Shown: positions 4,478-55,763 of the stretch, piece by piece
Layout of the letters: each line of letters starts with the position of its first letter
Position numbering within the stretch: position 1 is the stretch's first letter
DNA from: Pseudobdellovibrionaceae bacterium
Lineage (GTDB): Bacteria > Bdellovibrionota > Bdellovibrionia > Bdellovibrionales > Bdellovibrionaceae
Direction of reading: 5' to 3'
DNA length: 64,000 nt
Assembly (NCBI GenBank): GCA_019637915.1
Contig: JAHBUV010000001.1
Coordinates: 2,326,565-2,390,564, forward strand
The notes under the pieces: generated by a model
Databases searched by the model: none
What the model was told of the DNA's origin: nothing
What the model saw: only the letters and a program-made list of their open reading frames with translations
Made by a program: the position numbers and the translations under genes

Positions 4478-5560
4478 ATGCGGATCGCTGACAAGATGCA
4501 ATTCACCCAGGTGCAGGGAAACATCCAGAAGAACCGCCGCGAGATGTCGGATCTGCAGAACCAGGCGGCGACGCAGAAACGCATCACCAAGCCGTCGGAC
4601 GACCCTTTGGCGGCGGCCCGCGTGCTGGGCAACCGCACGGAAGAGCGCGGCAACGCCCAGTTCGTGAAGAACATCAATCAGCTGAAAAGCTTCCTCGAGT
4701 TCACCGACCAGTCCCTGGGCGAGCTGGGCGAGATCTTCATGCGCGCCAAGGAGCTGGCCGTGGGCCAGGCCTCGGACGCCGGCGCTTCGGCGCAGACCCG
4801 TTTGATCACGGCCTCCGAGGTGGAGCAGATCTACAACCAGGCCGTGCAGATCGGGAACCGCAAGCTCGGCGAGCGTTTCATTTTCTCCGGTTACAAGACC
4901 CAGACCCAGCCCTTCAGCCAAAACGGCGAGTACTTCGGCGACGACGGCGACATGAGGATCCAGACGCACAAGGAATCCTTCGTCGCCATGAACATCCCCG
5001 GTTCGAAGGTGTTCCTGGGGCGCGGCCTCAGCGCGGACGGTATCACCCGTCCGTCCATCGATGCCCCCCGGAACGTGGACGAGCTGAATGAACTGCGCGA
5101 TCAAGAGCAGTTGATGGAGGAGCAGCAGCAGGAGAAGGATTACAACTCCCTGCACACCCGCGGGCCGGCGGCCCTGGGGCGTCCGGCGAGCATCGGGGAT
5201 CGCGATCCCGTCGACCAGGATGGCGGCATCAATATCTTAAAAGTTCTTAAGGGCGTCGAGATCGCCATGCGGACCAACGACAAGGCGGCGATCCAGGACA
5301 GCCTGGACACCTTGGATCAGGCCTTGAACCAGGTGATTCTGGCGCGCGCCGAGGTGGGTTCCCGCATCATGGCCGTGAACAACACGACGGACACGCTTCA
5401 GAAGGCGATTGTGGACAATAAGACGTCCGCTTCGCAGCTGGAGGATGCTGACGTGTTCCAAGTGGTCAGTGATATCAACAAAACCGATGCAACCCTGCGG
5501 GCCACGCTGGAGACGTCGGGAAAGTTGATCGGGCCCACTCTTCTGGACTTCCTGAAGTAA
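4478..5560 (+). CDS. flgL: Flagellar hook-associated protein FlgL (HAP3)
   Basis: FlgL forms the second junction ring, next to the flagellin filament. The 360-residue protein begins MRIADKMQFTQVQGNIQKN and carries the flagellin-like N-terminal helix (NQAATQKRITKPSDDPLAAA, about 28-47) and a C-terminal helix with FQVVSDINKTDATLRATL. Residues about 200-250 form a Gln/Glu-rich insertion (EQLMEEQQQEK) that looks disordered. It is the last gene before a probable sigma-28-dependent csrA. Confidence 0.95.
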   Translation: MRIADKMQFTQVQGNIQKNRREMSDLQNQAATQKRITKPSDDPLAAARVLGNRTEERGNAQFVKNINQLKSFLEFTDQSLGELGEIFMRAKELAVGQASDAGASAQTRLITASEVEQIYNQAVQIGNRKLGERFIFSGYKTQTQPFSQNGEYFGDDGDMRIQTHKESFVAMNIPGSKVFLGRGLSADGITRPSIDAPRNVDELNELRDQEQLMEEQQQEKDYNSLHTRGPAALGRPASIGDRDPVDQDGGINILKVLKGVEIAMRTNDKAAIQDSLDTLDQALNQVILARAEVGSRIMAVNNTTDTLQKAIVDNKTSASQLEDADVFQVVSDINKTDATLRATLETSGKLIGPTLLDFLK

Positions 5561-5988: not shown

Positions 5989-6057
5989 CCCGAAACAGGA
6001 GCTGGCACCATTTGGAGACGCCGCGCATCTCCAATGGGTGCCAGCTCCTGTTTCGGG
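5989..6057. repeat. Palindromic repeat, GGTGCCAG family, inverted layout
   Basis: The outer arm CCCGAAACAGGAGCTGGCACC (5989-6009) is exactly mirrored by the sequence ending at 6057. Inside it TTGGAGA and TCTCCAA also pair, around the loop CGCCGCGCA. It shares GGTGCCAG(N)TCCTGTTT and TTTGGAGA blocks with the palindromes at 10036, 17409 and 19764, but with the motif order turned inside out and no flanking A/T runs. It occupies the csrA-fliW gap. The remaining 140 bases to fliW show nothing I can name. Confidence 0.85.
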
Positions 6058-9738: not shown

Positions 9739-10032
9739 ATGGAGATGTCAAAGAGCCCCTGGGAAAAAGGCGCCCTGTTCATCTGCGAAAAATGCGGTCG
9801 CCGCGTCGGGAGCGACGATTACGCCGAGAACACCAAAAAAGAATTCAAATCCCGCCTGAAGGACGACGGTTTCGGGAAAAGCATTCGTGTCATGACCTCG
9901 AGCTGCCTGAGCCTGTGCCCGAAGAACCAACAGGTCGTCGCCTGGTGCCCGGCCAACGGCCCGATGCAAATGATGGTCTACAATCCCGACAAGGAAACCG
10001 AAGACATCTACAAGTGGTTGAAAAAACGCTGA
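9739..10032 (+). CDS. Thioredoxin-fold [2Fe-2S] ferredoxin-like protein
   Basis: A 97-residue protein with four cysteines in the thioredoxin-like [2Fe-2S] ferredoxin pattern: FICEKCGRRV near the start, then TSSCLSLCPKNQQVV (about 55-69). A fifth cysteine follows in AWCP. The start ATG at 9739 is chosen because AAGGAG (9728-9733) is five bases upstream; a GTG at 9733 is also in frame. It is the last gene of the men operon and may carry electrons in quinone-linked chemistry, but the substrate is unknown. Confidence 0.8.
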   Translation: MEMSKSPWEKGALFICEKCGRRVGSDDYAENTKKEFKSRLKDDGFGKSIRVMTSSCLSLCPKNQQVVAWCPANGPMQMMVYNPDKETEDIYKWLKKR

Positions 10033-10035
10033 CGA

Positions 10036-10096
10036 AAAAGGTGCCAGGCTCTGTTTCGGGCCGCGCAGCGGCCCGAAACAGAGCCTGGCACCTTTT
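10036..10096. repeat. 61-bp palindromic repeat between convergent genes
   Basis: It reads AAAAGGTGCCAGGCTCTG inward and has a 29-bp perfect arm on each side of the three-base centre GCA. It starts four bases after the ferredoxin stop and touches the last base of the opposing ykgJ stop. A-run, GC-rich stem and T-run make it a plausible bidirectional terminator. Same length and outer sequence as the copies at 17409 and 19764. Confidence 0.95.
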
Positions 10097-10572
10097 CAGG
10101 TGCCGAGTTCGCGGTCCCATTTGATTTGGGCGCGCAGGGCGGTTTCGATTTCCTCGCGGCTCCAGGTGCGGCCTTTGCCGACGCCGGGGCAGAAGCTCAC
10201 GACGTCTTTCGCCCAGCTTTTGGGGTTCATCACTTCGGGCCAGAAGGGCCAGGTGCGGCACTGCATGGGGCGCACTTCGTAGACGCTGCAGCGTTTGCCG
10301 TCGAGGAAAAGGCAATCGGGATTTTCCTTGCGCTCTTTGAGGTGCCAGACGCCGTCGGTGCGCTCGCAGTATTGGCGCGTGAAGGCTTGCGTGGTCAGTC
10401 CCAGGTGCTTCGCGAATTGCTGACGGTCATGCAGGGTCAGGTAGACGAAGCCGTATTCCCCATGGGAGGTGCAGCATTTGCCCGAACCCTGGCACTGAAA
10501 GCGCACGCCCTGGCTCCACCACTGTTTGTCGTCCAAGCGCAGCTTGATGGTCTTCACGTTCCCGTCACTCAT
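10096..10572 (-). CDS. YkgJ-family cysteine-cluster protein
   Basis: A 158-residue cytoplasmic protein with the cysteine pattern of the YkgJ family, thought to bind zinc or iron: FQCQGSGKCC (about 26-35), then DCLFLDGKRCSVYEVRPMQC (about 86-105) and a final FCPG. Its physiological role is not established. The start overlaps the stop of the upstream thioesterase gene (ATGA), so the two form a minus-strand pair. The stop lies at the edge of the 61-bp palindrome. Confidence 0.85.
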   Translation of the reverse strand: MSDGNVKTIKLRLDDKQWWSQGVRFQCQGSGKCCTSHGEYGFVYLTLHDRQQFAKHLGLTTQAFTRQYCERTDGVWHLKERKENPDCLFLDGKRCSVYEVRPMQCRTWPFWPEVMNPKSWAKDVVSFCPGVGKGRTWSREEIETALRAQIKWDRELGT

Positions 10573-10988
10573 GCCGACGCCTCCACATAGGGGGTCAGGC
10601 GATCGCGCAGCTCCCGGGGCACCGGGGTTTTTTGCATCGTCGCCGAATCCAGAACGGCGTGCACCATGGTGACGACGCCGTGACGGCGGCCTTCTTTCGA
10701 AAACACGTACTTCATCTGAAAGGACGTGTCGCGGATCTGCGCCACCGTCACCGACACGTCGTAGGTTTCACCGGGTCGGAAGGGGGAGAGGAAATCCGAT
10801 TCCGCATGGCGGATGGGGATCATGTAATCGCCTTTGCGAAACCATTCCTTCCAGGCGTAACCCGCCGCGACGATGAACTCTTCGAAGCAATCGTGGGCGA
10901 AACTGAAGAGATTCCCGAAGTACATGATCTGCGCCGGATCGGCGTCGCGGAACTTGATGGTGATCTGGGTTTCGAAGACTCGTGACAT
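10569..10988 (-). CDS. Hotdog-fold acyl-CoA thioesterase, candidate DHNA-CoA hydrolase
   Basis: A 139-residue 4HBT/YbgC-like hotdog protein. The active-site helix region reads FRDADPAQIMYFGNLFSFAH with EEFI just after, the pattern D-x-D-P...Y-F-x-N typical of these hydrolases. The closest pattern I know is the DHNA-CoA thioesterase type that feeds MenA. Location between the men operon and a polyprenyl synthase supports that reading, but the substrate is inferred. It runs opposite to men and is coupled to ykgJ. The ATG at 10988 begins MSRVFETQ. Confidence 0.78.
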   Translation of the reverse strand: MSRVFETQITIKFRDADPAQIMYFGNLFSFAHDCFEEFIVAAGYAWKEWFRKGDYMIPIRHAESDFLSPFRPGETYDVSVTVAQIRDTSFQMKYVFSKEGRRHGVVTMVHAVLDSATMQKTPVPRELRDRLTPYVEASA

Positions 10989-11069
10989 CCCCCTTTTGTA
11001 CGATGAGACACGCCTTGACATCAAGCGTAGAACTGCGGAAATTGGGCGAAATTCTCGGAAGGGCCTCTT

Positions 11070-12026
11070 TTGCAGCAGCGTTCGATCGACCTCAAAATCT
11101 ACGATGCCCGGGATTTCCCGGCCTACCTCCCGAAGTTGAATCATCTCTATGATGATCTTTTCTCGGGCGGCAAAGGCTTCCGCGCCAAACTCATCCGCAT
11201 GGTGAACAAACACCTGCAGCTGCCGGCGAAAACCGAGCAGTTGCTGTCGCAAACCATCGAGTTCATCCACAACGCCTCGCTTTTGCACGACGATCTCATC
11301 GATCGCTCGCATTTGCGCCGGGGCAAACCGGCCGCGTGGCACAAATACACCCCGGAGTACGCCGTGCTGGCGGGGGATTACCTGCTGGCGCGCGTGATGG
11401 TGAATCTGTCGGGCCACGGCAACATCCGCTTGGTGCAATACACGGCGGAAGTGATCTCGGACCTCCTGGAGGGCGAATGGCTGCAGGACTCCGTCGTCGG
11501 CGATTATTTCGTGACGCTCGAGCAGCTCGATCGCATCCACAACTTGAAAACCGCCTCGCTTTTCAAGTGGTGCCTGCGCGCGCCCTTCATCGCCCTCGAG
11601 CGCCAGGATCAGCCGCTCCATGATTCCCTCGAGGAGATGGGAACGATCCTCGGCCAGCTGTTCCAGCGCGGCGACGATTTGCTTGATTACGACGTCCGCA
11701 ACGACGAGGGCAAGGCGGTGCTGGGCGATTTGAAATCCGGCTACCTGAATTCCTTCGGGGCGTTCGTCGCCCGCGGCCGTTCGCGGGCCGAGATCGATCT
11801 TCTGGTGAAAAGCCAGGACCTGAACGATTTCAAGAACGCCCTGGGCGGCGCCGCGGTCTTCGATCAGCGGGTGAAGGATTTCGACGCCGTCAACGAGGGT
11901 TTGATCCGGCTGTACCGGCACCATCTGGAGCGCGTCGGCCAGATGCTCCCCGAATCTCAACGGGGTTTGTTGAAGGATCTGAACCCGCTCACTGAAATCC
12001 TCTATTGGCGCAGGAAACCTTCGTGA
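11070..12026 (+). CDS. Polyprenyl diphosphate synthase
   Basis: A trans-isoprenyl chain elongase that would supply the side chain for menaquinone. It shows GGKGFRAKL (about 33-41), the first Asp-rich motif LLHDDLIDRSHLRRGKP (about 72-88) and the second GDDLLDYD (about 205-212). The only start after the upstream in-frame stop is TTG at 11070, with GGAAGG at 11057-11062 before it. A TTGACA at 11015-11020 may be a -35 box, but its -10 is poor. The length of 318 residues fits octaprenyl-type synthases. Chain length cannot be read from the sequence. Confidence 0.9.
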   Translation: MQQRSIDLKIYDARDFPAYLPKLNHLYDDLFSGGKGFRAKLIRMVNKHLQLPAKTEQLLSQTIEFIHNASLLHDDLIDRSHLRRGKPAAWHKYTPEYAVLAGDYLLARVMVNLSGHGNIRLVQYTAEVISDLLEGEWLQDSVVGDYFVTLEQLDRIHNLKTASLFKWCLRAPFIALERQDQPLHDSLEEMGTILGQLFQRGDDLLDYDVRNDEGKAVLGDLKSGYLNSFGAFVARGRSRAEIDLLVKSQDLNDFKNALGGAAVFDQRVKDFDAVNEGLIRLYRHHLERVGQMLPESQRGLLKDLNPLTEILYWRRKPS

Positions 12027-13084
12027 GAGAACTGCGCACCCTGGACCGCCGGCACCCGGATTTCATGAAACACCTGATGGGCACGTTTTCCCGCCAGCAC
12101 CGGGCTTTGCCGCTGAAGTCCCTGAACCCGCGCACCGAGACGGAAACCGTCACCTTCGAGATCATTCCCGTGAAGGCGGTGGGGCGCCCGCCCTGGCCGG
12201 TGGTGTGGCTGAAGGCGTTGCGGCCGCGCTCCTTCCTGCAGGTTCTCGTGCCGATGGCTTTGATTCTGCTCGCAAGTCCCCGGGGAAGCCTGGATCCCGA
12301 TCTGTCGTGGCTCGCGACCCTGGGCGTTTTGTTCCTGCAGGCGGCGGTGCTTCTGCGCAACGACGTCGAAGACCACGTGAGCGGCCTTGATCGTTTGCGT
12401 TCGGACCGCGGCAGCCGCGCCATTCAAAAAGGCTGGCTCACCGCCGACCATCTCAAGGGCGTCTCTTTCTGGTTGCTCGTGTTCTCCGTGCTGTGCGCCC
12501 TGCCCATCATGTGGGCGCGCCCGGCGATTCTGGGGATTCTGCTGGTGACGGCTTTGCTCGGGGGCGTGGCTTTTTTCCGTTCCGGCCGGGGCTACAAGGA
12601 CCTGCCCGGCGGTTCCTGGTTGCTGTTCCTGCTCGGCGGTCCCTTGCTGGTGGTGGGTTACGGCATCGCCGTTCATGGAACGGTCACCCTGGAGAACCTT
12701 TTGATGGGGATTCTGTGGGGCTGGTTCCTGCTGTTCCCCGTGCATTTGCGTGATCTCGAGCATCTGATCGCCGAAGGACAATCGGGCCGGGGCTCCCTGG
12801 TGGGGCGTCTGGGCTTCGATCGCGGCGTGAAGCTCATCGGTTGGTGGTGGATTTGCGGCGTCGCGGCCTTCGCCTTCTATCAGGAACGGGTCGGGGCGCC
12901 TTTGGTGTTCTGGATCCTGCTGTTCCTGGTGGTGCTGGGATCGAGTTTTTTCATGCGCGATCTGCGGCGTCTGCGGTCGCCGGCCGGTTCGGCGGTGGCG
13001 GATCTGCGCCGGCAGGGGGAGCTCTCCTCTTACGCTCTGGTGCTTCTGTGGATCTTGGAAGAGCTGTGGCGCCATCCTCTGTGA
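12023..13084 (+). CDS. UbiA-superfamily prenyltransferase (second in the window)
   Basis: An integral membrane protein of 353 residues with the UbiA signatures NDVEDHVSGLD (about 112-122) and a second Asp motif HLRDLEHLIAEGQSGRGS (about 242-259), separated by several hydrophobic segments. It differs from MenA at 6781 in having an N-terminal soluble extension of about 60 residues. The GTG start at 12023 overlaps the polyprenyl synthase stop, so the lipid donor and this transferase are co-expressed. The aromatic acceptor is unknown. Confidence 0.82.
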   Translation: MRELRTLDRRHPDFMKHLMGTFSRQHRALPLKSLNPRTETETVTFEIIPVKAVGRPPWPVVWLKALRPRSFLQVLVPMALILLASPRGSLDPDLSWLATLGVLFLQAAVLLRNDVEDHVSGLDRLRSDRGSRAIQKGWLTADHLKGVSFWLLVFSVLCALPIMWARPAILGILLVTALLGGVAFFRSGRGYKDLPGGSWLLFLLGGPLLVVGYGIAVHGTVTLENLLMGILWGWFLLFPVHLRDLEHLIAEGQSGRGSLVGRLGFDRGVKLIGWWWICGVAAFAFYQERVGAPLVFWILLFLVVLGSSFFMRDLRRLRSPAGSAVADLRRQGELSSYALVLLWILEELWRHPL

Positions 13085-13662
13085 AACCGGATCTGGAGAT
13101 CGATTTCGACCGGCCGGGGCCCGATTACCATCGCAAGGCCGTGAAGGGCCGCCGCGAGCTCCTGGCCCGCGCCGTGGGTGCCCAGCAAGGGGCGCGGAAA
13201 ATCCTCGATCTGTCGGCGGGGCTCGCCCAGGACGCGGTTTTCCTCTGTCAAATGGGATTCACCGTGACGGCGGTCGAGCGCCATCCCGTGATCGCGGGCC
13301 TTCTGACATCGGCCTTGCAGCGCACGCGGCGTCCCGAATTGCGCGAGCGCCTGACGATCCGCGAAGGCGATGCCCGCGACGTCCTGCGGGAGCCGGACTG
13401 CGCGCGGGATTTCGACGCGGCCTACTTCGATCCCATGTACCCCTTGAAGAAAAAATCCGCCCTGCCACGCAAAGAGATGTTGCTGTTCCGCGAACTCGTG
13501 GGAGATGACGCGGACGCGGCCGAGGTGGTGCGTCTGGCTTTGCGGCTGGGGCCGCCGCGCCTGGCGGTGAAACGCCCCCTGAAGGCGCCGCCCCTGTTGG
13601 AGGGCGTGAAGCATTCCTTTGAAGGCACGACGGTTCGTTACGACATTTACGTGAGGTCCTGA
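13081..13662 (+). CDS. rsmJ: 16S rRNA (guanine1516-N2)-methyltransferase RsmJ-like
   Basis: A SAM-dependent methyltransferase of 193 residues. The order matches RsmJ: RKAVKGRRELLARAVG near the start, the SAM motif ILDLSAGLAQDAVFL (about 41-55), VTAVERHPVIAGLL, then the hallmark FDPMYPLKKKSALPRKEM (about 118-135) with LVGDDADA following, and VKRPLKAPPL. GTG at 13081 overlaps the previous stop. It sits inside a prenyl-lipid operon with no functional link I can see. Confidence 0.9.
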   Translation: MKPDLEIDFDRPGPDYHRKAVKGRRELLARAVGAQQGARKILDLSAGLAQDAVFLCQMGFTVTAVERHPVIAGLLTSALQRTRRPELRERLTIREGDARDVLREPDCARDFDAAYFDPMYPLKKKSALPRKEMLLFRELVGDDADAAEVVRLALRLGPPRLAVKRPLKAPPLLEGVKHSFEGTTVRYDIYVRS

Positions 13663-14876
13663 TGACGGAATTTCTGGTGTTCGGTTTGATCGTTTTGATG
13701 ACGTGGTCCCTGCAAAGATTCACCGGGGCTTTGGCGTTGTTGCTGCAAAAAGCGCGACGGGCCTCGTTGAGCCGGCCCGCTTCGACCTCGTCGAACCTGC
13801 TGGTGGTGAACGCGGCGGCGGCTTTGATGGAGCCCTCGATGTGGGCGAACCGCGTCCAAGCGGCGATGCTGCAGAACTTCCGCCTGCGTTCCTGGCGCGC
13901 CAACCTGCTGCTGGCCTGCCTGTCTTTTTTGGGGCTGTGGGCGGCCTTTCTGGCGGCCAATTTGTTTTTGAACATCAGCGGCCTCTTTCTGCTGTCGGTG
14001 GGCGGGGTGATCCTGATTCTTTCAACGGTGCTGTGGCCCTCGGCGCGGGCGGCGGCGCAAGGGTTTTTCTTCCTCGGGCTTTTCCTGTGGGCCGGGGAAA
14101 GCAGCCTGCGTTTCACCACGACCTGGGCGGCGGGCGCCACGACGGACTGGTCGATGCTGCTGGCGGACGGTCGTTTCGTCGGCAGTCTCTGTTTGTTCGG
14201 GATCGGTCTGCTGAGCGGCGCTTTGCTGCGCCTGGAATTTTTGATGTTGAGCGCGGCCCTGGTCGGACTCTCGGCGGGAGTCCTTTCCGTCAACGGCGCG
14301 GTGGCCCTGTGGCTGGGGGAGCGGGCCGGTCTGATGCTGGCGCTGGCGTTTTCCGTCCGCCATCTGACGAAGAGCACCCGGCTGTTGGTCTGGAAGACGA
14401 CGGCGGTGACCGTGGCGGCGTCTTTCATCGCCTTGCTGCTTCTGGGTTACGCGCGCGATGTCCTGGGTCCTGTTTCAACGCTTGGATCGGAAGGGGTGCT
14501 CGAGCGCCTTTCCTTGTTCCTGATGTTGTCGGCCGTCATGGAGGCGCCGGTGGCCCTGTCCTTGCTGATCTGGGGGCACCGGGAGGGCTCGCGCACGCCG
14601 GAGGATCTTTTCGAGGTCAAATACGCCGGTGAAAAAATCTGGCGCGCGGGCGGACTGCGCCGCCCGATGCTGATCTGGATGCGCGACGGCCTGGTGCGCC
14701 GCCGCGCCGACATCGGCCGTTTCCGCGGGGAATTCAACGAAACGGATTGGCAAAAAGTCCCGCCCGCGGTCCGCAACGCCTCGACGCGGGAATCGGAGGC
14801 TCTTGAAAGCCTGTTGCAAACGCTGGATTCCCACCTTTTGTCGAGATCGGATTTTTTCGATGATCATCGCGGGTGA
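13662..14876 (+). CDS. Polytopic inner-membrane protein of unknown function
   Basis: A 404-residue protein with about nine hydrophobic segments between residues 1 and 310 and a polar, charged C-terminal tail of about 90 residues. I do not recognise a family with confidence. The glycine-rich segments and soluble tail recall Na/phosphate cotransporter-like proteins, but no diagnostic motif is present. The start overlaps the rsmJ stop by one base (TGATG), so it belongs to the same operon. An in-frame alternative start is not obvious. Confidence 0.75.
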   Translation: MTEFLVFGLIVLMTWSLQRFTGALALLLQKARRASLSRPASTSSNLLVVNAAAALMEPSMWANRVQAAMLQNFRLRSWRANLLLACLSFLGLWAAFLAANLFLNISGLFLLSVGGVILILSTVLWPSARAAAQGFFFLGLFLWAGESSLRFTTTWAAGATTDWSMLLADGRFVGSLCLFGIGLLSGALLRLEFLMLSAALVGLSAGVLSVNGAVALWLGERAGLMLALAFSVRHLTKSTRLLVWKTTAVTVAASFIALLLLGYARDVLGPVSTLGSEGVLERLSLFLMLSAVMEAPVALSLLIWGHREGSRTPEDLFEVKYAGEKIWRAGGLRRPMLIWMRDGLVRRRADIGRFRGEFNETDWQKVPPAVRNASTRESEALESLLQTLDSHLLSRSDFFDDHRG

Positions 14877-14897
14877 TCGGGGTCACAATAGGAAGGC

Positions 14898-15791
14898 ATG
14901 TCGGACAAGCAAGATCAGCTGAAAGAGAAAATCCGTGAGCTCGAGGGCGAACTCGCCGCGAAAGAGGCCGAACTCGCCCAGATGAGGCTGCGTTTGAGCG
15001 CCACCAACGTGCGCCTGGAATCCGTCATCGACCGCATCGGTCACGAGATCAAACTCGCCTCGAAACTGCAGCGCCTGTTGTCGCCGGTGGAGATGCCGAA
15101 CATCGCCGGCTTCGAGTTCAGCACGAAGTTCGTGCCGGGCACCAGATCGGGCGGCGACTACTTCGACATCTTCGAGCACGAGGACCGTTTGCGTTTTGGC
15201 ATCGTCCTGTCGTCGAGCTCCGGTTACACGATGTCGGCTCTTTTCCTGTCCGTGCTGATGAAGATCTCCTCGAAGATGGAGGCGCGTCGGGGCCTTGAGC
15301 CCCATGAGATGATCGCCACCATCCAGCGCGAGATGGGCCCCGAGATGAAGAACGACGATCGCGCCAGTCTGTTTTACGCCGTCGTCGACCGCCGCAATTT
15401 CGAAATGAATTACTGCTCGTGGGGCGACACCTCGGCGTATCTGCAGTTGCACGGCGAGGACGCGTTGACGCGTTTGGAAGCGCAGGCGCCCGCGCTCAAT
15501 AAGCTTTCTTCCGTTGAAGCCCGGACGATGAAGGTTCTGCTCAATCCCCGCGACCGCCTGATTTTGTGTTCTGACGGTGTCGCGAAAACGGCAAACATCG
15601 AGGGAAAAGCCTGGGGCGAAAGCGGTCTGCGCGACGCCATCCGTTCGGCTCCGCGCCAGGGCGTCCACGAATTGCGCAATGAAATCCTCTACCGGAACGA
15701 GAATTTTTCCGGAAAACACGAGCCGGACCGCGATCAAACGGTTCTGGTCCTCGAAGTTAAAGACAAAGTCATCAAATTGGCAAAAAACTAA
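14898..15791 (+). CDS. SpoIIE/RsbU-type PPM phosphatase with an altered metal site
   Basis: Residues 1-45 form a coiled coil (KEKIRELEGELAAKEAEL), followed by a PP2C-like SpoIIE domain. The first metal motif SGGDYFD (about 83-89) is intact, as are ILCSDGV (about 221) and PDRDQT (about 276). The second motif, usually DVSGHG, reads SSSSGYT (about 103-109), so its aspartate is lost. Activity may be reduced or altered. Such proteins usually act on anti-anti-sigma partners; none is in this window. A 13-base gap from upstream GATCGG places it after the membrane-protein gene. Confidence 0.85.
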   Translation: MSDKQDQLKEKIRELEGELAAKEAELAQMRLRLSATNVRLESVIDRIGHEIKLASKLQRLLSPVEMPNIAGFEFSTKFVPGTRSGGDYFDIFEHEDRLRFGIVLSSSSGYTMSALFLSVLMKISSKMEARRGLEPHEMIATIQREMGPEMKNDDRASLFYAVVDRRNFEMNYCSWGDTSAYLQLHGEDALTRLEAQAPALNKLSSVEARTMKVLLNPRDRLILCSDGVAKTANIEGKAWGESGLRDAIRSAPRQGVHELRNEILYRNENFSGKHEPDRDQTVLVLEVKDKVIKLAKN

Positions 15792-15850
15792 AATAATTGC
15801 GGCGTCAAAGTCGATCTGATAGTAAATTTCTTGAGTAGGAAGGATGGAAA

Positions 15851-16987
15851 ATGGCCGAAGTTCAAATTTATGAGGGTGCGGTTGATAAGGGTCTCGAGGG
15901 CGTCGTCGCGTGCACGACCGCCGTGTCGTCGATCGTCGGTGACACCCTGAATTTCCGTGGTTACACGATCGAGGATCTCGCGGAAAATTCGAATTTCGAG
16001 GAAGTGACCTTCCTGTTGTGGAACGACCGCCTTCCGAACAAAAACGAACTGCAGGCTTTCCGTTCCGAGCTCAGCCGCGAGATGAGCCTCCCGGCCGACT
16101 ATCTGAAAGTCCTGAAAACCCTTCCGACCAACGTTCATCCGATGGCCTGGTTGCGCACGGCCGTTTCCCTGCTTTCGCATTGGGACACGGACGCCAACGA
16201 CAATTCCCCGGAGGCCAACCGCCGCAAGGCCCTGCGCCTGACGGCCAAAATGGGCACGATCGTTTGCGCCTATGAGGCGATCCGCAACAAGCGCGAACCT
16301 GTCGCCCCGCAGGCCGACAAGAGCGTCGCCTGGAACTTCATGCATATGTTGACCGGCAAAGAACCGGAAAGCGATCTCGTGAAGGTCTTCGACACCTGTT
16401 TGATCCTGCACGCCGATCACGAGCTCAACTGCTCGGCCTTCGCGACCCGCGTGACGGCCTCGTCCTTGTCGGACCTGCACTCGGCCGTGGTGTCCGCCAT
16501 CGGCGCCCTGAAAGGCCCGCTCCACGGCGGCGCCAACGAGCAGGTGATCCTGATGCTCAAGAACATCGGCAACATCGAGAAGGCCCAGCAGTTCGTGAAG
16601 GACGCCCTGGCGGCCAAAGAGAAAGTCATGGGCATCGGTCACCGTGTTTACAAAAACGGCGATCCGCGCGCCCGCATCCTGCGCGGCATCTCCGAGAAGC
16701 TGACCAAGAAAATCGGCGAGCCGCAGTGGTACGAGATGTCCACCCTCATCGACGACACCATGAACAAGGAAAAGGGCCTGATGCCGAACGTGGATTTCTA
16801 CTCGGCGACGGTCTATTACAGCATGCGCATCCCGACGGATCTGTTCACGCCGATCTTCGCCGTCAGCCGCATCACCGGCTGGTGCGCCCATGCGATGGAG
16901 CAATACGCGAACAACCGCATCTACCGTCCCCGCGGTCGCTGGACCGGCAAGGACGGTTTGAAGTGGGTTCCTGTGGAGAAACGTTAA
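15851..16987 (+). CDS. gltA: Citrate synthase
   Basis: It condenses oxaloacetate and acetyl-CoA to citrate at the entry to the TCA cycle. Active-site landmarks are HADHELNCSAFATR (about 184-197), GPLHGGANEQV (about 220-230), GIGHRVYKNGDPRARIL (about 260-276, oxaloacetate-binding His and Arg) and VDFYSATVYY (about 314-323, catalytic Asp). At 378 residues it is the short form without the N-terminal domain of the E. coli type. AGGAAGG before the ATG at 15851 supports the start. It appears monocistronic or paired with the following small regulator. Confidence 0.97.
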   Translation: MAEVQIYEGAVDKGLEGVVACTTAVSSIVGDTLNFRGYTIEDLAENSNFEEVTFLLWNDRLPNKNELQAFRSELSREMSLPADYLKVLKTLPTNVHPMAWLRTAVSLLSHWDTDANDNSPEANRRKALRLTAKMGTIVCAYEAIRNKREPVAPQADKSVAWNFMHMLTGKEPESDLVKVFDTCLILHADHELNCSAFATRVTASSLSDLHSAVVSAIGALKGPLHGGANEQVILMLKNIGNIEKAQQFVKDALAAKEKVMGIGHRVYKNGDPRARILRGISEKLTKKIGEPQWYEMSTLIDDTMNKEKGLMPNVDFYSATVYYSMRIPTDLFTPIFAVSRITGWCAHAMEQYANNRIYRPRGRWTGKDGLKWVPVEKR

Positions 16988-17020
16988 GGACGGCATTGAC
17001 CCGCAGAAAGGGAGGTTCAA

Positions 17021-17296
17021 ATGGCAACCGCTACCGCAAAAGAAGATCTGTTCCGCAGTTTGGGTTCCTACTTGCGCGACAAGCGCGAGAAAAAAGGCAT
17101 GACCCAGACGGACGTGGCTTCTTCCTTGAAAGTGCGTCCGCAGTTCGTCTCGAACTGGGAGCGCGGTCTGAGCTCTCCGCCCTGGCGCCTCATGCGCCAA
17201 CTGGTGCGGGTGTACAACATTCCGAAGAACGAAATCGTCAAAGTCCTGGTGAAGGAGCATGAGAGCTTCATCCGCCAGAACCTCGGCGTGAAGTAG
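17021..17296 (+). CDS. Small XRE-family helix-turn-helix regulator
   Basis: A 91-residue protein that is nearly all one HTH_3 domain: LGSYLRDKREKKGMTQTDVA (about 10-29), with SNWERGLSSPPWRLM forming the recognition helix and turn. A short helical tail follows. It starts 33 bases after citrate synthase, with AAAGGGAGG before the ATG, and ends at a strong terminator, so it may be co-transcribed with gltA. No separate promoter is evident and its target is unknown. Confidence 0.88.
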   Translation: MATATAKEDLFRSLGSYLRDKREKKGMTQTDVASSLKVRPQFVSNWERGLSSPPWRLMRQLVRVYNIPKNEIVKVLVKEHESFIRQNLGVK

Positions 17297-17321
17297 ATCC
17301 GCGAGGATCCGCGAAAAAAAC

Positions 17322-17357
17322 AAAAAGCCGCCTCCATCGGGGCGGCTTTTTGTTTTT
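17322..17357 (+). terminator. Intrinsic terminator after the XRE gene
   Basis: GCCGCC (17327-17332) pairs with GGCGGC (17341-17346), extended by an A-run on the left and TTTTTGTTTTTT on the right. It ends the gltA-XRE unit 50 bases before the 61-bp palindrome. Confidence 0.88.
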
Positions 17358-17408
17358 TGGAAAGCGGAAAAAACGTCAGCGAAACCACCCAAGCCGGCTG
17401 CCATTCCC

Positions 17409-17469
17409 AAAAGGTGCCAGGTCCTGATTGTGGGAGCGGCGCTCCCACAATCAGGACCTGGCACCTTTT
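17409..17469. repeat. 61-bp perfect palindromic repeat
   Basis: Two 30-bp arms, AAAAGGTGCCAGGTCCTGAT and on to GGGAGCG, are exact inverted copies around a single central G at 17439. It lies between the convergent XRE gene and the minus-strand secreted-protein gene. Outer 18 bases are identical to the copy at 19764; the inner arm (TGTGGGAGCG) differs. Confidence 0.97.
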
Positions 17470-17506
17470 CGGGTGACGCAGTGCTTGTCCGCTGCGGACT
17501 TTATGA

Positions 17507-18196
17507 TCAGCGCCGGCGTTCGCACTCCACGAAGATGTCTCTCTGCAGAAAATCCGAATCCTGGCGAGGTTGGGGTTTGCTCACAAAAGCCGTCGCACGC
17601 ACCGACATGGAAGAGGTATCCGAGATCAGAAGGGGACTGTCCGACTTGATCTTGTCCAGAGCATAGCCGTTGTCCAGGGGCAAACGGGTGTGAGCGGAGA
17701 GCGTGACTTGGTCCTGTTCGGTGGTTTCGCCGCGGTGGAAATAAATGCTGACCCAATTTCCTTCGAGGGAAAAAGCCTCGCGGGGTTTCCGCGCCAGGAC
17801 GCGCTCATTGTTATCCGAGTCTTCCGCTTCCAATCTTCGCAGCCAGGTCCAAGACAGATTTTCCGCACGGACAATTCTTTTGCTATTGGTCAGATTGAAT
17901 TTCGCCACGGCGTACAGTTTGTAGGACCCCATGGTCGAAGAGCGCAGCATATGATCCGTTACCTCCGCGTGGCATTCATACTCCACGGGGGTCGTGGGAT
18001 CATAGGGGGGGACTGGCGCGCCGCCGGAACTGTGCCAATCGCCGCGCAGGATTTTGGCTTCGGCAGGGTTGACGGCCATGGTCACCGCCAGGAGAAAAAA
18101 GGTGGCAAGGGGTCTTCTGGCTGCTTTGGCGGATTGGACCACGACGTTTGTCCATAACATGGACAGGAGGCCTGGAATGGTCAGCGGCGATTTCAT
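17507..18196 (-). CDS. Secreted protein of unknown function
   Basis: A 229-residue protein with a long N-terminal hydrophobic export region ending near MAVNPAEA (about residues 37-44), probably the cleavage site. The mature part is polar and has only two cysteines, in YECHAE and near the end in FVECERRR. I recognise no domain. The start ATG at 18196 is chosen because AAGGAG precedes it at good distance; longer readings upstream lack one. GC content is lower than in neighbours. It may pair with the similar-sized secreted protein behind it. Confidence 0.72.
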   Translation of the reverse strand: MKSPLTIPGLLSMLWTNVVVQSAKAARRPLATFFLLAVTMAVNPAEAKILRGDWHSSGGAPVPPYDPTTPVEYECHAEVTDHMLRSSTMGSYKLYAVAKFNLTNSKRIVRAENLSWTWLRRLEAEDSDNNERVLARKPREAFSLEGNWVSIYFHRGETTEQDQVTLSAHTRLPLDNGYALDKIKSDSPLLISDTSSMSVRATAFVSKPQPRQDSDFLQRDIFVECERRR

Positions 18197-18294
18197 GGAA
18201 GCTCCTTCAATCAATCTGAGGGATCGAGCAGGGAAAAGAGCAGGACTGTGCCACGGGTCCTGCAACAGGGTCAACGAGGGCTGGCCGTGAGAAC

Positions 18295-18735
18295 TTACTT
18301 TTTTCTGCAGGTCCAGAGGCTGCTGATGACGGTCTCGCAAAGCATCAGTGTTTCGATCGTTTTACGATCCTGGCTGATGCCAGCGATGCGATAATCAAAA
18401 GCTGAGCCGTCTTTTTTGGTGATGACGACTTGCTCGAGGGTCACTGTTTTTTTCATCATCGAGCCCATATTCTGGCGACAGCTGCTGTTACTGGTTTCGG
18501 ACAGGGTGTGGGAGCTTTTCACTTCCGCCTCAAAAACACCTTCCTCATCGCGGATTTGTTGAGTGGGGGAGCCGAGTTCATCGGGCTTCAGGCGCAGGGT
18601 CAACTCGATGAAATTCTCGAGGGTGCTGTTTGCTTTTCTCACGGTGCCTTCCGCATTGCTGCAATAAGTCTGAATGGAAGAGGCGTGGACTTGGGGCATC
18701 AGCATCACGATAGAGGTCATCAAAAGCGTTTTCAT
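18295..18735 (-). CDS. Small secreted protein of unknown function
   Basis: A 146-residue protein with signal peptide MKTLLMTSIVMLMPQVHA and a mature domain containing four cysteines (TYCSN, SSCRQ, MLCET, WTCRK), which may form two disulfides in the periplasm or outside. I recognise no family. The start at 18735 is six bases from AAGGAG. Base composition is clearly AT-richer than the core genes, and it lies beside an AT-rich island, so recent acquisition or weak selection is possible. Confidence 0.72.
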   Translation of the reverse strand: MKTLLMTSIVMLMPQVHASSIQTYCSNAEGTVRKANSTLENFIELTLRLKPDELGSPTQQIRDEEGVFEAEVKSSHTLSETSNSSCRQNMGSMMKKTVTLEQVVITKKDGSAFDYRIAGISQDRKTIETLMLCETVISSLWTCRKK

Positions 18736-18769
18736 GCACATCTCCTTGGAGATTGTTGGTTTCTTTCTT

Positions 18770-18860
18770 GGAGTGATTTTTAAGTCCTTTGACGCTCTTT
18801 TTCCATAATAAATTAATATATTTATAATATAATTCTTCAAAATTATTAATTATCTAGCAG
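18770..18860. other. AT-rich divergent promoter region
   Basis: Between the minus-strand secreted-protein gene and the TIGR02147 gene the sequence becomes extremely AT-rich, for example AATTAATATATTTATAATAT near 18812-18832, in an otherwise GC-rich genome. It probably holds the minus-strand promoter (ATAT/TATAAT-like boxes) and may bind a nucleoid protein. I cannot fix the exact -35 and -10 boxes. Confidence 0.5.
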
Positions 18861-18911
18861 CGAAACCCACAGGAATGCCTTATAAAGACTCCATAAAAAC
18901 GGAAGGTTCCT

Positions 18912-19751
18912 ATGTTGAACGTTTATGATTACCAGGAATACCGCAAGCTCTTGCGCGACGAGGCCGCTCGCCGCAAAAAAGAACGTCCCGGATGGACTTT
19001 GCAAAGGATCGCTGAGAAGGCGGAGGTGCAGGCCCCCTATCTCACCAACGTGCTGAAAGAACGCGCCCATTTGCAATCGGACCAGCTCTACGCCCTGGCC
19101 CAGATCTTCGAGTGGGACGAAGAGCAAACGGATTACGCCCAGATGCTGCTTGAGCAGGAACGCAGCGGCAATCTGCAGCGACGCAAGCACCTTCTGGAAA
19201 AACTGAACCGCATCCGTCGCGAGAAAATGAGGACCAAGGCGCACTTGAAAGCCGAGCTCGTCGAGGAGGGGGCGCCGGAGAACATGCGCTTGTTCCTGAA
19301 CCCTTTCGCTTTCGTCGTGTACTCGCTGTTGAGCGTGCCGCGGTTCAATCAGGACCCGCGCCGGATCACGCGCTGCCTGCCGGTGGATTTCACGCAGGTG
19401 CAAAGCTGGTTGAAGGATCTGGTGCGCGCCGGTTTCCTGAAGGCCACCGCCAAGGGCTACGAAAAGCAGAAAAAACAATTCCACGTGCCGGCGGATTCGC
19501 CTCTTTGCGAGCCTCATCAAACTTTATTGAGGCAGCTCATGCAGCAGCAGATCCAAAGCCTGCCGGACGGGGAAAAGTACGCCTTCAAGGTGAATTTCAG
19601 CGCCGATCCGGAAACCCGGGATCAGATTCAAAAGGAATTCCTGAAATTTCTGAAAGCGGTGGAGCCTCTGGTGCAAACGGCGCCTTCCGAAGAGGTCTAC
19701 GGACTGAGCTTCGAGCTTTTCCGTTGGTCCTACGAAAAAAACGGCGATTAG
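18912..19751 (+). CDS. TIGR02147-family regulator
   Basis: A 279-residue cytoplasmic protein that starts LNVYDYQEYRKLLRDEAARR, the usual opening of the TIGR02147 family. An HTH-like segment follows (TLQRIAEKAEVQAPYLTNVL, about 28-47), and later the family region FNPFAF-like LFLNPFAFVVYSLL with a winged-helix part (VQSWLKDLVRAGFLKATAKG). The family is known mainly from Fibrobacter and Bdellovibrio, with undefined targets. GGAAGG precedes the ATG. Divergence from the two secreted-protein genes makes them possible targets. Confidence 0.85.
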   Translation: MLNVYDYQEYRKLLRDEAARRKKERPGWTLQRIAEKAEVQAPYLTNVLKERAHLQSDQLYALAQIFEWDEEQTDYAQMLLEQERSGNLQRRKHLLEKLNRIRREKMRTKAHLKAELVEEGAPENMRLFLNPFAFVVYSLLSVPRFNQDPRRITRCLPVDFTQVQSWLKDLVRAGFLKATAKGYEKQKKQFHVPADSPLCEPHQTLLRQLMQQQIQSLPDGEKYAFKVNFSADPETRDQIQKEFLKFLKAVEPLVQTAPSEEVYGLSFELFRWSYEKNGD

Positions 19752-19763
19752 TCCGCCGTTCCG

Positions 19764-19824
19764 AAAAGGTGCCAGGTCCTGTTTGGAGAAGCGCCGCTTC
19801 TCCAAACAGGACCTGGCACCTTTT
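19764..19824. repeat. 61-bp perfect palindromic repeat
   Basis: Two 30-bp arms, AAAAGGTGCCAGGTCCTGTT and on to TGGAGAAGCG, mirror exactly around a single central C at 19794. It lies 12 bases after the TIGR02147 stop and 47 bases before the stop of the opposing phosphoesterase gene. It can terminate transcription from both sides. Confidence 0.97.
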
Positions 19825-19850
19825 GGTGCTAGCGGATAGGCGGTGCGTTA

Positions 19851-19870
19851 CCAAACAGGACCTGGCACCT
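19851..19870. repeat. Half-copy of the GGTGCCAG palindrome
   Basis: This 20-base stretch repeats the right arm of the 61-bp element (TTGG/CCAAACAGGACCTGGCACC) without a left arm. It ends one base before the phosphoesterase stop codon on the minus strand. It looks like a remnant of, or seed for, a second element. Confidence 0.85.
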
Positions 19871-19871
19871 G

Positions 19872-21005
19872 TCAGAGGCGGATTTCGAAGCTGGTGATTT
19901 CGCTGGTGGCACCCAGGCGCAGGGGCGGGCCCCAGAAGCCGGTGCCGAGGTTCACGTAGATCCAGGCGCGGCCGTGGCGGTAGAGGCCCTTCACGTACAC
20001 GTTGAACCATCCCACCACCAGGGTGAAGGGGAAGTACTGGCCGCCGTGGGTGTGGCCCGACAGGACCAGATGGGCGCCCGCCGGTTCCGCGGTGAGCACG
20101 GACTTCGGCTGATGGGCGAGCAGGATGTTGAACGAACCCACCGGCGCGCCCATCAGGGCAAGCACGGGGTCATGATGATGATCCGGCCGGATGGCGCGCG
20201 CGCTGATGTCCGGAACGCCCGCGATCCAGATCGGGCGCCCCGGCCCCGGCAGAAGTTCGCCGCTGTTGAAGAGCACCTTCATCCCCAGGCACTTCACGGC
20301 GTGCAGCCACAGATCGACGTTCCAGTAGTACTCATGATTGCCGGTGACGTAGTAGATCCCCAGCGGCGCCTCGAGGCGCTCGAGGGGATCCATGTCCTCC
20401 TCGAGAAACTCCGGCTTGCCGTCGGCGATGTCGCCCGTCACGGCGATGACATCGGGCTTTTCGGCGTTCACCAGGCGCACGATATTTTCGACGTAACTTT
20501 TTTTGATGATGGGTCCCACGTGCAGGTCGCTGATCTGCACGAGCTTCAGCACCCGCGTCGGCGCGCGCCCTTCGGTCGCGTCCAAAACGACGCGACGGAC
20601 TTCCGGTCCCTCATAGGCGTTCTGCGCGCCCCACAGGCTCGCGCCCAGGCAGCTGAAGAAGACGCCGTAGCTGACCCAGGAATTCACCCAGGCCTGATGC
20701 ACTTCGAAATTCTGCGGGAACCACCACCACCAGATCTGGTAGAGAAAATCCTTGAAGAGGGTGGCGAGGAAAAGATGGCTCAAAAGGCCGAAGGAAAAAT
20801 ACGCCGGCCCGATCAGCCACGAAAGATCGCCCTTGATGCGGAAGAGCAGCCAGCGCGCCGCCTGCAGGCCGTAAGCGATGACGAAAAATCCCAGTACCGC
20901 TTGACGCAACGGTTCCGCGAGAGTGGCGGTCTCGATGAGGCGCTCCCACACGTAGAACCACGCCAGGGACAGACTGAGGCAGACGATCAGCGAATAGATC
21001 AGCAT
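19872..21005 (-). CDS. Membrane-anchored metallophosphoesterase
   Basis: A 377-residue protein with about four N-terminal membrane segments (residues 1-150), then a calcineurin-like phosphoesterase domain. All metal motifs are present: ISDLHVGP (about 168), VTGDIADG (about 200), VTGNHEYYW (about 229), LAHQP (about 290) and SGHTHGGQ (about 307). The layout resembles the YkuE/YaeI group, which act on membrane lipids or headgroups; the substrate here is not known. The start is ATG at 21005, and the stop adjoins the half-palindrome. Confidence 0.9.
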   Translation of the reverse strand: MLIYSLIVCLSLSLAWFYVWERLIETATLAEPLRQAVLGFFVIAYGLQAARWLLFRIKGDLSWLIGPAYFSFGLLSHLFLATLFKDFLYQIWWWWFPQNFEVHQAWVNSWVSYGVFFSCLGASLWGAQNAYEGPEVRRVVLDATEGRAPTRVLKLVQISDLHVGPIIKKSYVENIVRLVNAEKPDVIAVTGDIADGKPEFLEEDMDPLERLEAPLGIYYVTGNHEYYWNVDLWLHAVKCLGMKVLFNSGELLPGPGRPIWIAGVPDISARAIRPDHHHDPVLALMGAPVGSFNILLAHQPKSVLTAEPAGAHLVLSGHTHGGQYFPFTLVVGWFNVYVKGLYRHGRAWIYVNLGTGFWGPPLRLGATSEITSFEIRL

Positions 21006-54532: not shown

Positions 54533-55719
54533 TGCTGTCCAAACGCGCCGCGAATCTGAAAGCTTCCCCGACCCTGGCTTTGGTGGCGAAAGCCAAGGAG
54601 CTGCAGGCCCAGGGGCATGACGTGATCTCCCTCACGGTGGGCGAGCCGGATTGGCCGACCTTGCCGGTGGCGGCGGAGGCGGGGATCGAAGCCATCCGCC
54701 AGGGTTTCACCAAGTACACGGCGGCGTCCGGCACGGTGGAATTGCGTCAGGCCCTGGCCGCCAAATACAAAAGCGAGCTCGGTCAGGACTATTCCCCCGC
54801 GGAGATCATGGTCGGCCCCGGCGCCAAGTTCGTGATCTTCTCGGCCCTGCAGGTGCTGTGCGATCCGGGCGATGAGGTCATTCTCCACACGCCTTACTGG
54901 GTGAGCTATCCCACCATGATCGAACTCGCCGGTGGCGTCCCGAAGATCGTCGAGTGCGGCGCGAAGGAGAACTACAAAATCGGCGCCGAGGCGCTGGAAG
55001 CGGCCATCACGCCGCGCACGAAGGCGTTTTTGTTCTGTTCGCCGAGCAATCCCACGGGCGTCATGTACTCGCGCGAGGAGCTCGCGGCCCTGGCCGAAGT
55101 GTTCCGCCGCCATCCGCGGGTGGCGATCTTGTCCGACGACATTTACAACCGCCTGGTTTTCGAGGGCGCGAAAGTGGCCCCGCACCTGCTGCATGTCGCC
55201 CCTGATCTGAAAGACCGTTTGATCGCCATCAACGGCGGGTCGAAAGCTTTCTCGATGACGGGTTGGCGCATCGGCTGGGCGGCGGGCCCGGGCCGGCTGA
55301 TCAAGGCCATGGGCGATTACCAAAGCCAGGCCACGGGGGCGCCGTCCTCCATCGCGCAGGCGGCGGCCCTGGCGGCGGTGAAAAACAGCGAAAAAGAGGT
55401 GGCCGAGGCCGTGAGCCTGCTGAAAAAACGCTGCGAGGCGGGACTCAAGGTCATCGGCTCCGTGCCGGGCTTTGAAGTGGCCCGCCCTGACGGGGCTTTT
55501 TATTTCTGGGTGAATCTGCGCCAAGTCCTCGGTCGCCGCCACAAAGACCGCGTGATCGAGAACGACTCGGTCTTTTGCGACATCCTCCTCAACGAGTATT
55601 TCGTCGCCACGGTGCCGGGGGCCGAGTGCGGCAGCCCGGGCTACATGCGCCTGAGCTTCGCCTGCTCCGAGTCCGACGTCGCCCGCGCCGCCGACCGCAT
55701 GAAAGAAATGCTGAGGTAA
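54529..55719 (+). CDS. Class I aminotransferase, aspartate-type
   Basis: A PLP-dependent aminotransferase of 396 residues. Landmarks are LTVGEPDWPTLPVAAEAG (about 35-52), TKYTAASGTVELRQAL (about 62-77), SPSNPTGVMYSREEL (about 174-188), LSDDIYNRL (about 202-210) and the PLP lysine in NGGSKAFSMTGWRIGW (about 230-245). The pattern fits the Ib subgroup of aspartate aminotransferases. It overlaps coaD by four bases and is directly followed by a palindrome. Confidence 0.93.
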   Translation: MMLSKRAANLKASPTLALVAKAKELQAQGHDVISLTVGEPDWPTLPVAAEAGIEAIRQGFTKYTAASGTVELRQALAAKYKSELGQDYSPAEIMVGPGAKFVIFSALQVLCDPGDEVILHTPYWVSYPTMIELAGGVPKIVECGAKENYKIGAEALEAAITPRTKAFLFCSPSNPTGVMYSREELAALAEVFRRHPRVAILSDDIYNRLVFEGAKVAPHLLHVAPDLKDRLIAINGGSKAFSMTGWRIGWAAGPGRLIKAMGDYQSQATGAPSSIAQAAALAAVKNSEKEVAEAVSLLKKRCEAGLKVIGSVPGFEVARPDGAFYFWVNLRQVLGRRHKDRVIENDSVFCDILLNEYFVATVPGAECGSPGYMRLSFACSESDVARAADRMKEMLR

Positions 55720-55763
55720 CAGTTCCCTTTTTGTCGCGCGATGCGCGACAAAAAGGGAACTGT
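55719..55763. repeat. 45-bp palindrome abutting the aminotransferase stop
   Basis: Two perfect 21-bp arms, ACAGTTCCCTTTTTGTCGCG plus one base (55719-55739) and its inverse (55743-55763), surround the loop GAT. The first base is the last base of the stop codon TAA. It belongs to a different sequence family than the GGTGCCAG palindromes but has the same layout. Confidence 0.92.

Follow-up and report, generated by a model that had tools for sequence, protein, structure and literature searches.

Three 61-bp palindromes in the window (the whole stretch of 64,000 nucleotides analysed, G000:C1:2326565-2390564, from a Bdellovibrionales-like genome of 3.32 Mb) are best explained, with a probability of roughly 0.86, as non-autonomous miniature transposable elements in which the two terminal inverted repeats (TIRs) of a TIRYT/RAYT stand head to head with no gene. 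As such they are the gene-less TIR dimers belonging to a REP-associated transposase of the TIRYT type, arranged on a REPIN-like plan, and not canonical GTAG REPs. A RAYT encoded elsewhere in the genome probably spreads them. An earlier note on this DNA had proposed a REP/RAYT-type or other domesticated palindromic element, a reading that stands for a RAYT-like palindromic family and falls for canonical GTAG REPs.

The window palindromes belong to a family with a fixed core

The window holds the following members and relatives of the family:

10036..10096, no strand assigned: full palindrome 1, a TIR dimer with inner arm GCTCTGTTTCGGGCCGC; set between two convergent stop codons; empty in congener G001
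17409..17469, no strand assigned: full palindrome 2, a TIR dimer with inner arm GTCCTGATTGTGGGAGC; in a convergent gap
19764..19824, no strand assigned: full palindrome 3, a TIR dimer with inner arm GTCCTGTTTGGAGAAGC; in a convergent gap
about 19840..19869, minus strand: single arm GGTGCCAGGTCCTGTTTGGTAACGCACCGC; begins 2 nt past the TGA of the minus-strand gene ending at 19872
5989..6057, no strand assigned: inside-out copy, two outward-pointing GGTGCCAGCTCCTGTTTCGGG arms around an inner TTTGGAGA palindrome
17473..17499, plus strand: candidate decayed single arm GTGACGCAGTGCTTGTCCGCTGCGGAC, after palindrome 2; a weak match, read by eye

Exactly as first described, the three full palindromes have perfectly complementary arms of 29, 30 and 30 nt around centres of 3, 1 and 1 nt (10036, 17409 and 19764 copies, respectively); in the 17409 copy the arms extend to 33 nt at 97%. 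Folded as RNA from either strand, they reach -62 to -68 kcal/mol (z -10 to -13), and 0 of 200 shuffles were equally stable. The inside-out and half copies that had also been reported are both real. The inside-out copy has 33-nt arms (91%) around a 3-nt centre. It resembles a pair of abutting transposon ends and may have arisen as a circle-junction-like product or by nested insertion. The candidate arm at 17473-17499 resembles, weakly and by eye, the right half of a degenerate copy at C1:3179136.

A count of copies across the genome, which the earlier note had suggested, places the family well above chance: the pattern GGTGCCAG-N(24-50)-CTGGCACC occurs at 19 places in the palindromes' own genome, vs 0 for a reversed-pattern control. 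The gap was 37 nt in all 19 matches, defining a fixed 53-bp GGTGCCAG...CTGGCACC core. These palindromes number at least 19 full copies in the genome and are accompanied by single-arm copies; a 17-mer search allowing up to 3 mismatches returned 62 arm matches in the same genome vs 18 for the control. Some single arms are isolated; others keep a constant distance of 40 bp to a full palindrome, as at 627680, 803083, 2817413, 2845985 and 2847623.

A REP-type transposase lies between inverted repeats of the same arms

The earlier note had seen no transposase here and advised looking for a REP-associated one. Such a gene is present outside the window: a Y1/HUH REP-type tyrosine transposase (RAYT) of 212 aa is encoded at G000:C1:670750-671385, 1.66 Mb from the window palindromes, between 56-bp inverted repeats (TAGGTGCCAGCTCCTCTTTCGGGCCGCACCGCATCCCCCCAAGGTGCCAGGTCCTG, 55/56 identical) that are built from palindrome-family arms. 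The outer arm of these TIRs is the same as the single arms seen 40 bp beside some palindromes, and the inner arm begins like the palindrome arms. The inner arms (TTTACGGACAC) come no nearer to the palindromes of this genome than do some foreign TIRs (0.68 vs 0.71). At this locus (L032 1253-2083, G000:C1:670619-671449), the transposase sits inside nested inverted repeats (outer arm, 40 bp, inner arm), and the 40-bp step is found again beside several gene-less palindromes.

The protein is closest to REP-associated transposases. It matches PF01797 above the cut-off, NF047646 with E 1.4e-15, which is under the curated cut-off, and PDB 4er8 by sequence with E 0.004. For a close homologue, the confidently predicted model (mean pLDDT 90) has TnpAREP 4er8 as its top match (E 3.7e-8), followed by IS608 and ISDra2, and carries helices beyond the core at 159-188. 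The motifs NHFH and Y120-N-Y-R-N-P (Y120xxxNP) are conserved, NHFH and Y120 being invariant in 18 homologues, and the sequence is near subclass 2.1 of PMC6006769, which contains most TIRYTs and typically has an HTH-like extension at the C-terminus. Named homologues come mostly from Bdellovibrionales/Bdellovibrionaceae MAGs (42-68% identity), the ground on which this genome probably belongs to that order; plasmid matches are distant (at most 32% identity over at most 67% of the query), and viral contigs held no exact match to one arm pattern. A second Y1, RAYT-type gene (C1:2222738-2223337, L031) has a different TIR, AGGTACCGCCTACTTTCTGG / GGTACCGCCTACTTTCTGG, and lies just upstream of a flagellin-like gene.

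Related genomes pair palindromes with transposon ends

Among 40 genomes searched, palindromes of the same plan were found in 10 (own genome counted) and a transposase homologue in 25, and within the order GGTRCC-type TIRs flank the majority of RAYT homologues. A genome's palindrome arms tend to match its own RAYT TIRs, only 3 of 5040 label permutations being as good when genomes were treated as unrelated: G021 has GCTACTTTTCGGAACGC in both, G030 has GCGTATTTTTCGGA in both, and G028 and G032 behave likewise. This comparison used only the pairing of the two ends and not their left/right labels, which are unreliable for minus-strand RAYT matches because those loci were not turned. The G013 palindromes have two unlike inner arms, TTTCTTGYTGC and TTTCCGGACTC, as found at the two differing ends of the G013 transposon, which fits a dimer of two transposon ends brought together.

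The congener G001, which has 5 palindromes, provides an empty site. Between the same two stops, the 10036 gap measures 63 bp here vs 6 bp (AAGGGA) in G001, where the flanking genes are orthologous and convergent and their C-terminal ends align without truncation. The difference of 57 bp corresponds to the 53-bp core plus 4, and no clear target duplication is apparent at this one site. No clean empty site was found at 2847623, 627680 or 1503007, where neighbours differ or fail to align, and G001 lacks about 2 kb around sites 17409 and 19764, which makes the comparison impossible there. The clean empty sites thus number just one, and no excision product was seen; nor was a RAYT homologue found in the G001 assembly (92% complete). 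In G013, the convergent gap orthologous to that at 803083 holds an ordinary hairpin-T7 terminator. Near this position (L039 about 1596-1632, G000:C1 about 803180), a stop codon and the outer element end are both covered by a 16-bp tandem duplication, GGCACCTGTTAGGTGT; the neighbouring gene encodes a product that falls about 22 residues short of its homologue in G013.

Copies abut stop codons and prefer convergent gaps

The palindromes had been described as lying between convergent genes, with a proposal to compare this preference with expectation. In the window, full palindromes occupy 3 of 6 convergent gaps vs 0 of 61 other gaps (Fisher p 4e-4), so that all three copies there are placed as described. 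Of the 18 copies classified across the genome, 10 lie in convergent gaps, compared with 6 convergent gaps among 67 in the window (binomial p 7e-7, with codon-usage-based gene calls and a background drawn from one window and the loci around copies). The preference is supported, but we dropped the idea that every copy is convergent since the remaining 8 of 18 are otherwise placed (7 co-directional and 1 divergent).

The nearness to stops claimed earlier was borne out. The left stop ends at 10032 for the 10036 copy, in which the right gene's stop codon overlaps the last base of the palindrome, and at 19751 for the 19764 copy. The 17409 copy is less tight, its left stop being 112 bp away with a separate hairpin (17315-17358) in between; the latter is an ordinary A-stem-T hairpin in the same convergent gap, with 18-nt perfect arms and an 8-nt loop. 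When a gene points at an element end, single arms counted as ends, its stop usually lies 0-7 nt from GGTGCC and most often 2 nt. Element-adjacent stops are TAA or TAG in 18/24 cases vs 34/102 elsewhere (p 4e-4) and CTAA in 11/24 vs 8/102 (p 4e-5), CTAA being rare in the window (12 occurrences over both strands, of which called stops account for 3). The stop codon may owe part of its sequence to the element end, as is common for GTAG REPs (PMC3733652); the other possibility is that the element favours CTAA as a target. A target consisting of CTAA only was rejected because 6 of the 24 abutting stops are TGA.

All three window copies have T4 on both sides, and several other copies are without T4 on one side. 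A simple terminator scan flagged the 10036 copy on the minus strand only, the 19764 copy on the plus strand only and the 17409 copy on neither. The description of these palindromes as ideal two-way terminators was overstated, because the T run is only four bases long and pairs with the A run, and because some copies adjoin a second hairpin. Stem and placement make it plausible that the palindromes end transcription in both directions or protect RNA 3' ends, and they may still act as terminators.

Arms change together and the centre varies

Within one copy, the arms differ at 0.24 of 17 positions vs 4.2 between copies, a contrast matched in 0 of 5000 shuffles (own genome, one degenerate copy left out). 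Of 15 variable pairs, 14 had changed on both sides and none among standard pairs on one side only, which upholds the compensatory arm change that the earlier note had claimed. Where the arms are alike across copies, the centre triplet changes much faster than they do: in G030 it shows 0.457 differences per site vs 0.047 for the arms. Nine copies in G030 have the same arms and, counted strand-neutrally, five different centre triplets; per site, the centre changes about ten times faster than the arms. A transition-only bias among arm mismatches was discarded, being untrue with all genomes pooled.

Compensatory change is also a property of REPINs (PMC3116915), and template switching between the arms of imperfect inverted repeats equalises arms (PMC8604942). 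We propose a mechanism in which two TIRs stand head to head with three bases between them (GC-NNN-GC), and in which the HUH transposase would nick single-stranded DNA at the ends and move the hairpin. Copies would survive, or be aimed, just past stop codons, where no gene is broken. The highly stable, A/T-ended stem could act as a two-way transcription end or shield RNA from 3' decay. Near-perfection of the arms would result from arm-to-arm copying (by template switching, or with one arm as the template for its partner at transposition), from selection on the hairpin or from both, all of these routes being possible. A doubtful extension of this mechanism would have transposition itself perfect the palindromes, with fold-back synthesis on a single-stranded intermediate copying one arm into the other as the three central bases are rewritten, and would have the transposase aim at CTAA-like stops, inserting a ready-made gene end.

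Alternative explanations

The copies might instead be immobile, strong bidirectional intrinsic terminators that are selected at convergent gene ends and kept alike through gene conversion. Enrichment in convergent gaps, very stable hairpins with A4/T4 ends and the ordinary hairpin-T7 terminator in the G013 gap would all follow from such a role, but the same arms flank a transposase gene, the 10036 gap has no element in the congener, 8 of 18 copies are not convergent, and a fixed 53-bp length with 25-bp arms exceeds what a terminator needs. We consider this explanation quite improbable.

Mobility through another kind of element fares worse. Canonical GTAG-type REP/REPIN elements served by a canonical RAYT would share the enzyme family, the inverted doublets, the compensatory changes and the gene-end placement (PMC3116915, PMC3733652), and are nonetheless very unlikely here: the arms begin AAAAGGTGCCAG or NNGGTGCCAG, with no GTAG or CGTC tetranucleotide at the palindrome foot, no separate hairpin lies within each arm, and long TIRs flank the transposase. 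That the palindromes are MITEs of a DDE-transposase insertion sequence is scarcely credible. Terminal inverted repeats and a short, gene-less length are typical of MITEs generally, but the gene between the matching long inverted repeats is of the Y1/HUH type both here and in relatives, the one empty site has no apparent target duplication, and no DDE transposase gene was seen between GGTGCCAG ends in the flanks read.

Relation to known systems

Read as gene-less TIR dimers, the palindromes represent a kind of element that is already known, the TIRYT/TIRtron architecture, of which this family is a new branch. In TIRtrons (Di Nocera et al. 2013, PMC3733652), long TIRs that have no relation to GTAG REPs enclose a RAYT-like Y1 gene (TIRYT), and these TIRs form moderately abundant families, often as dimers and sometimes self-complementary (PMC3733652). 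Here, likewise, a Y1 transposase with an HUH motif and a catalytic tyrosine lies between near-identical 56-bp TIRs (55/56) unrelated to GTAG REPs, and the TIRs are repeated in the genome as 19 dimers plus single arms. The family differs in that GGTGCCAG agrees with the GGGGWSAS motif at 6 of 8 positions, a motif that does not strictly define TIRYTs since it is given for some TIRs only (PMC3733652), in that its dimers form near-perfect hairpins of 53 bp around a 3-nt centre, and in its host, the Bdellovibrionales being unmentioned in PMC3733652.

REPINs are inverted doublets that form long, fixed-length hairpins, show compensatory changes and have a linked tyrosine transposase (Bertels and Rainey 2011, PMC3116915). 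Here too, two inverted units make up one fixed-length hairpin with compensatory changes, but the units are not GTAG REPs, the centre is about 3 nt instead of a long spacer, and copies number about 20 vs hundreds. The predicted model suggests that the Y1 HUH transposase fold is shared with IS200/IS605 elements (IS608, ISDra2). IS200/IS605 elements have subterminal hairpins, not long terminal inverted repeats.

No description of such elements in Bdellovibrio was found in the literature searched, and our results extend TIR-flanked REP-type transposases and their hairpin dimers to the Bdellovibrionales, with gene-bearing and gene-less forms pairing up in several genera. The combination of near-perfect arms and a variable three-base centre makes it testable how REP-like hairpins stay symmetric, and the 0-7-nt stop spacing does the same for target choice vs selection behind gene-end placement.

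A second palindrome in the window

A different perfect palindrome lies at 55719-55763 of the window, with arms ACAGTTCCCTTTTTGTCGCGC and a 3-nt centre, starting at the TAA of the ORF that ends at 55719. A further copy is present at L168 about 5419-5462 (C1 about 3182319). In G021, a RAYT (L211) has GGTACCAGTTCCCTTTT TIRs that are similar to the arm. On sequence grounds, the ACAGTTCCCTTTTTGTCGCGC palindromes are a putative second TIR-dimer family.
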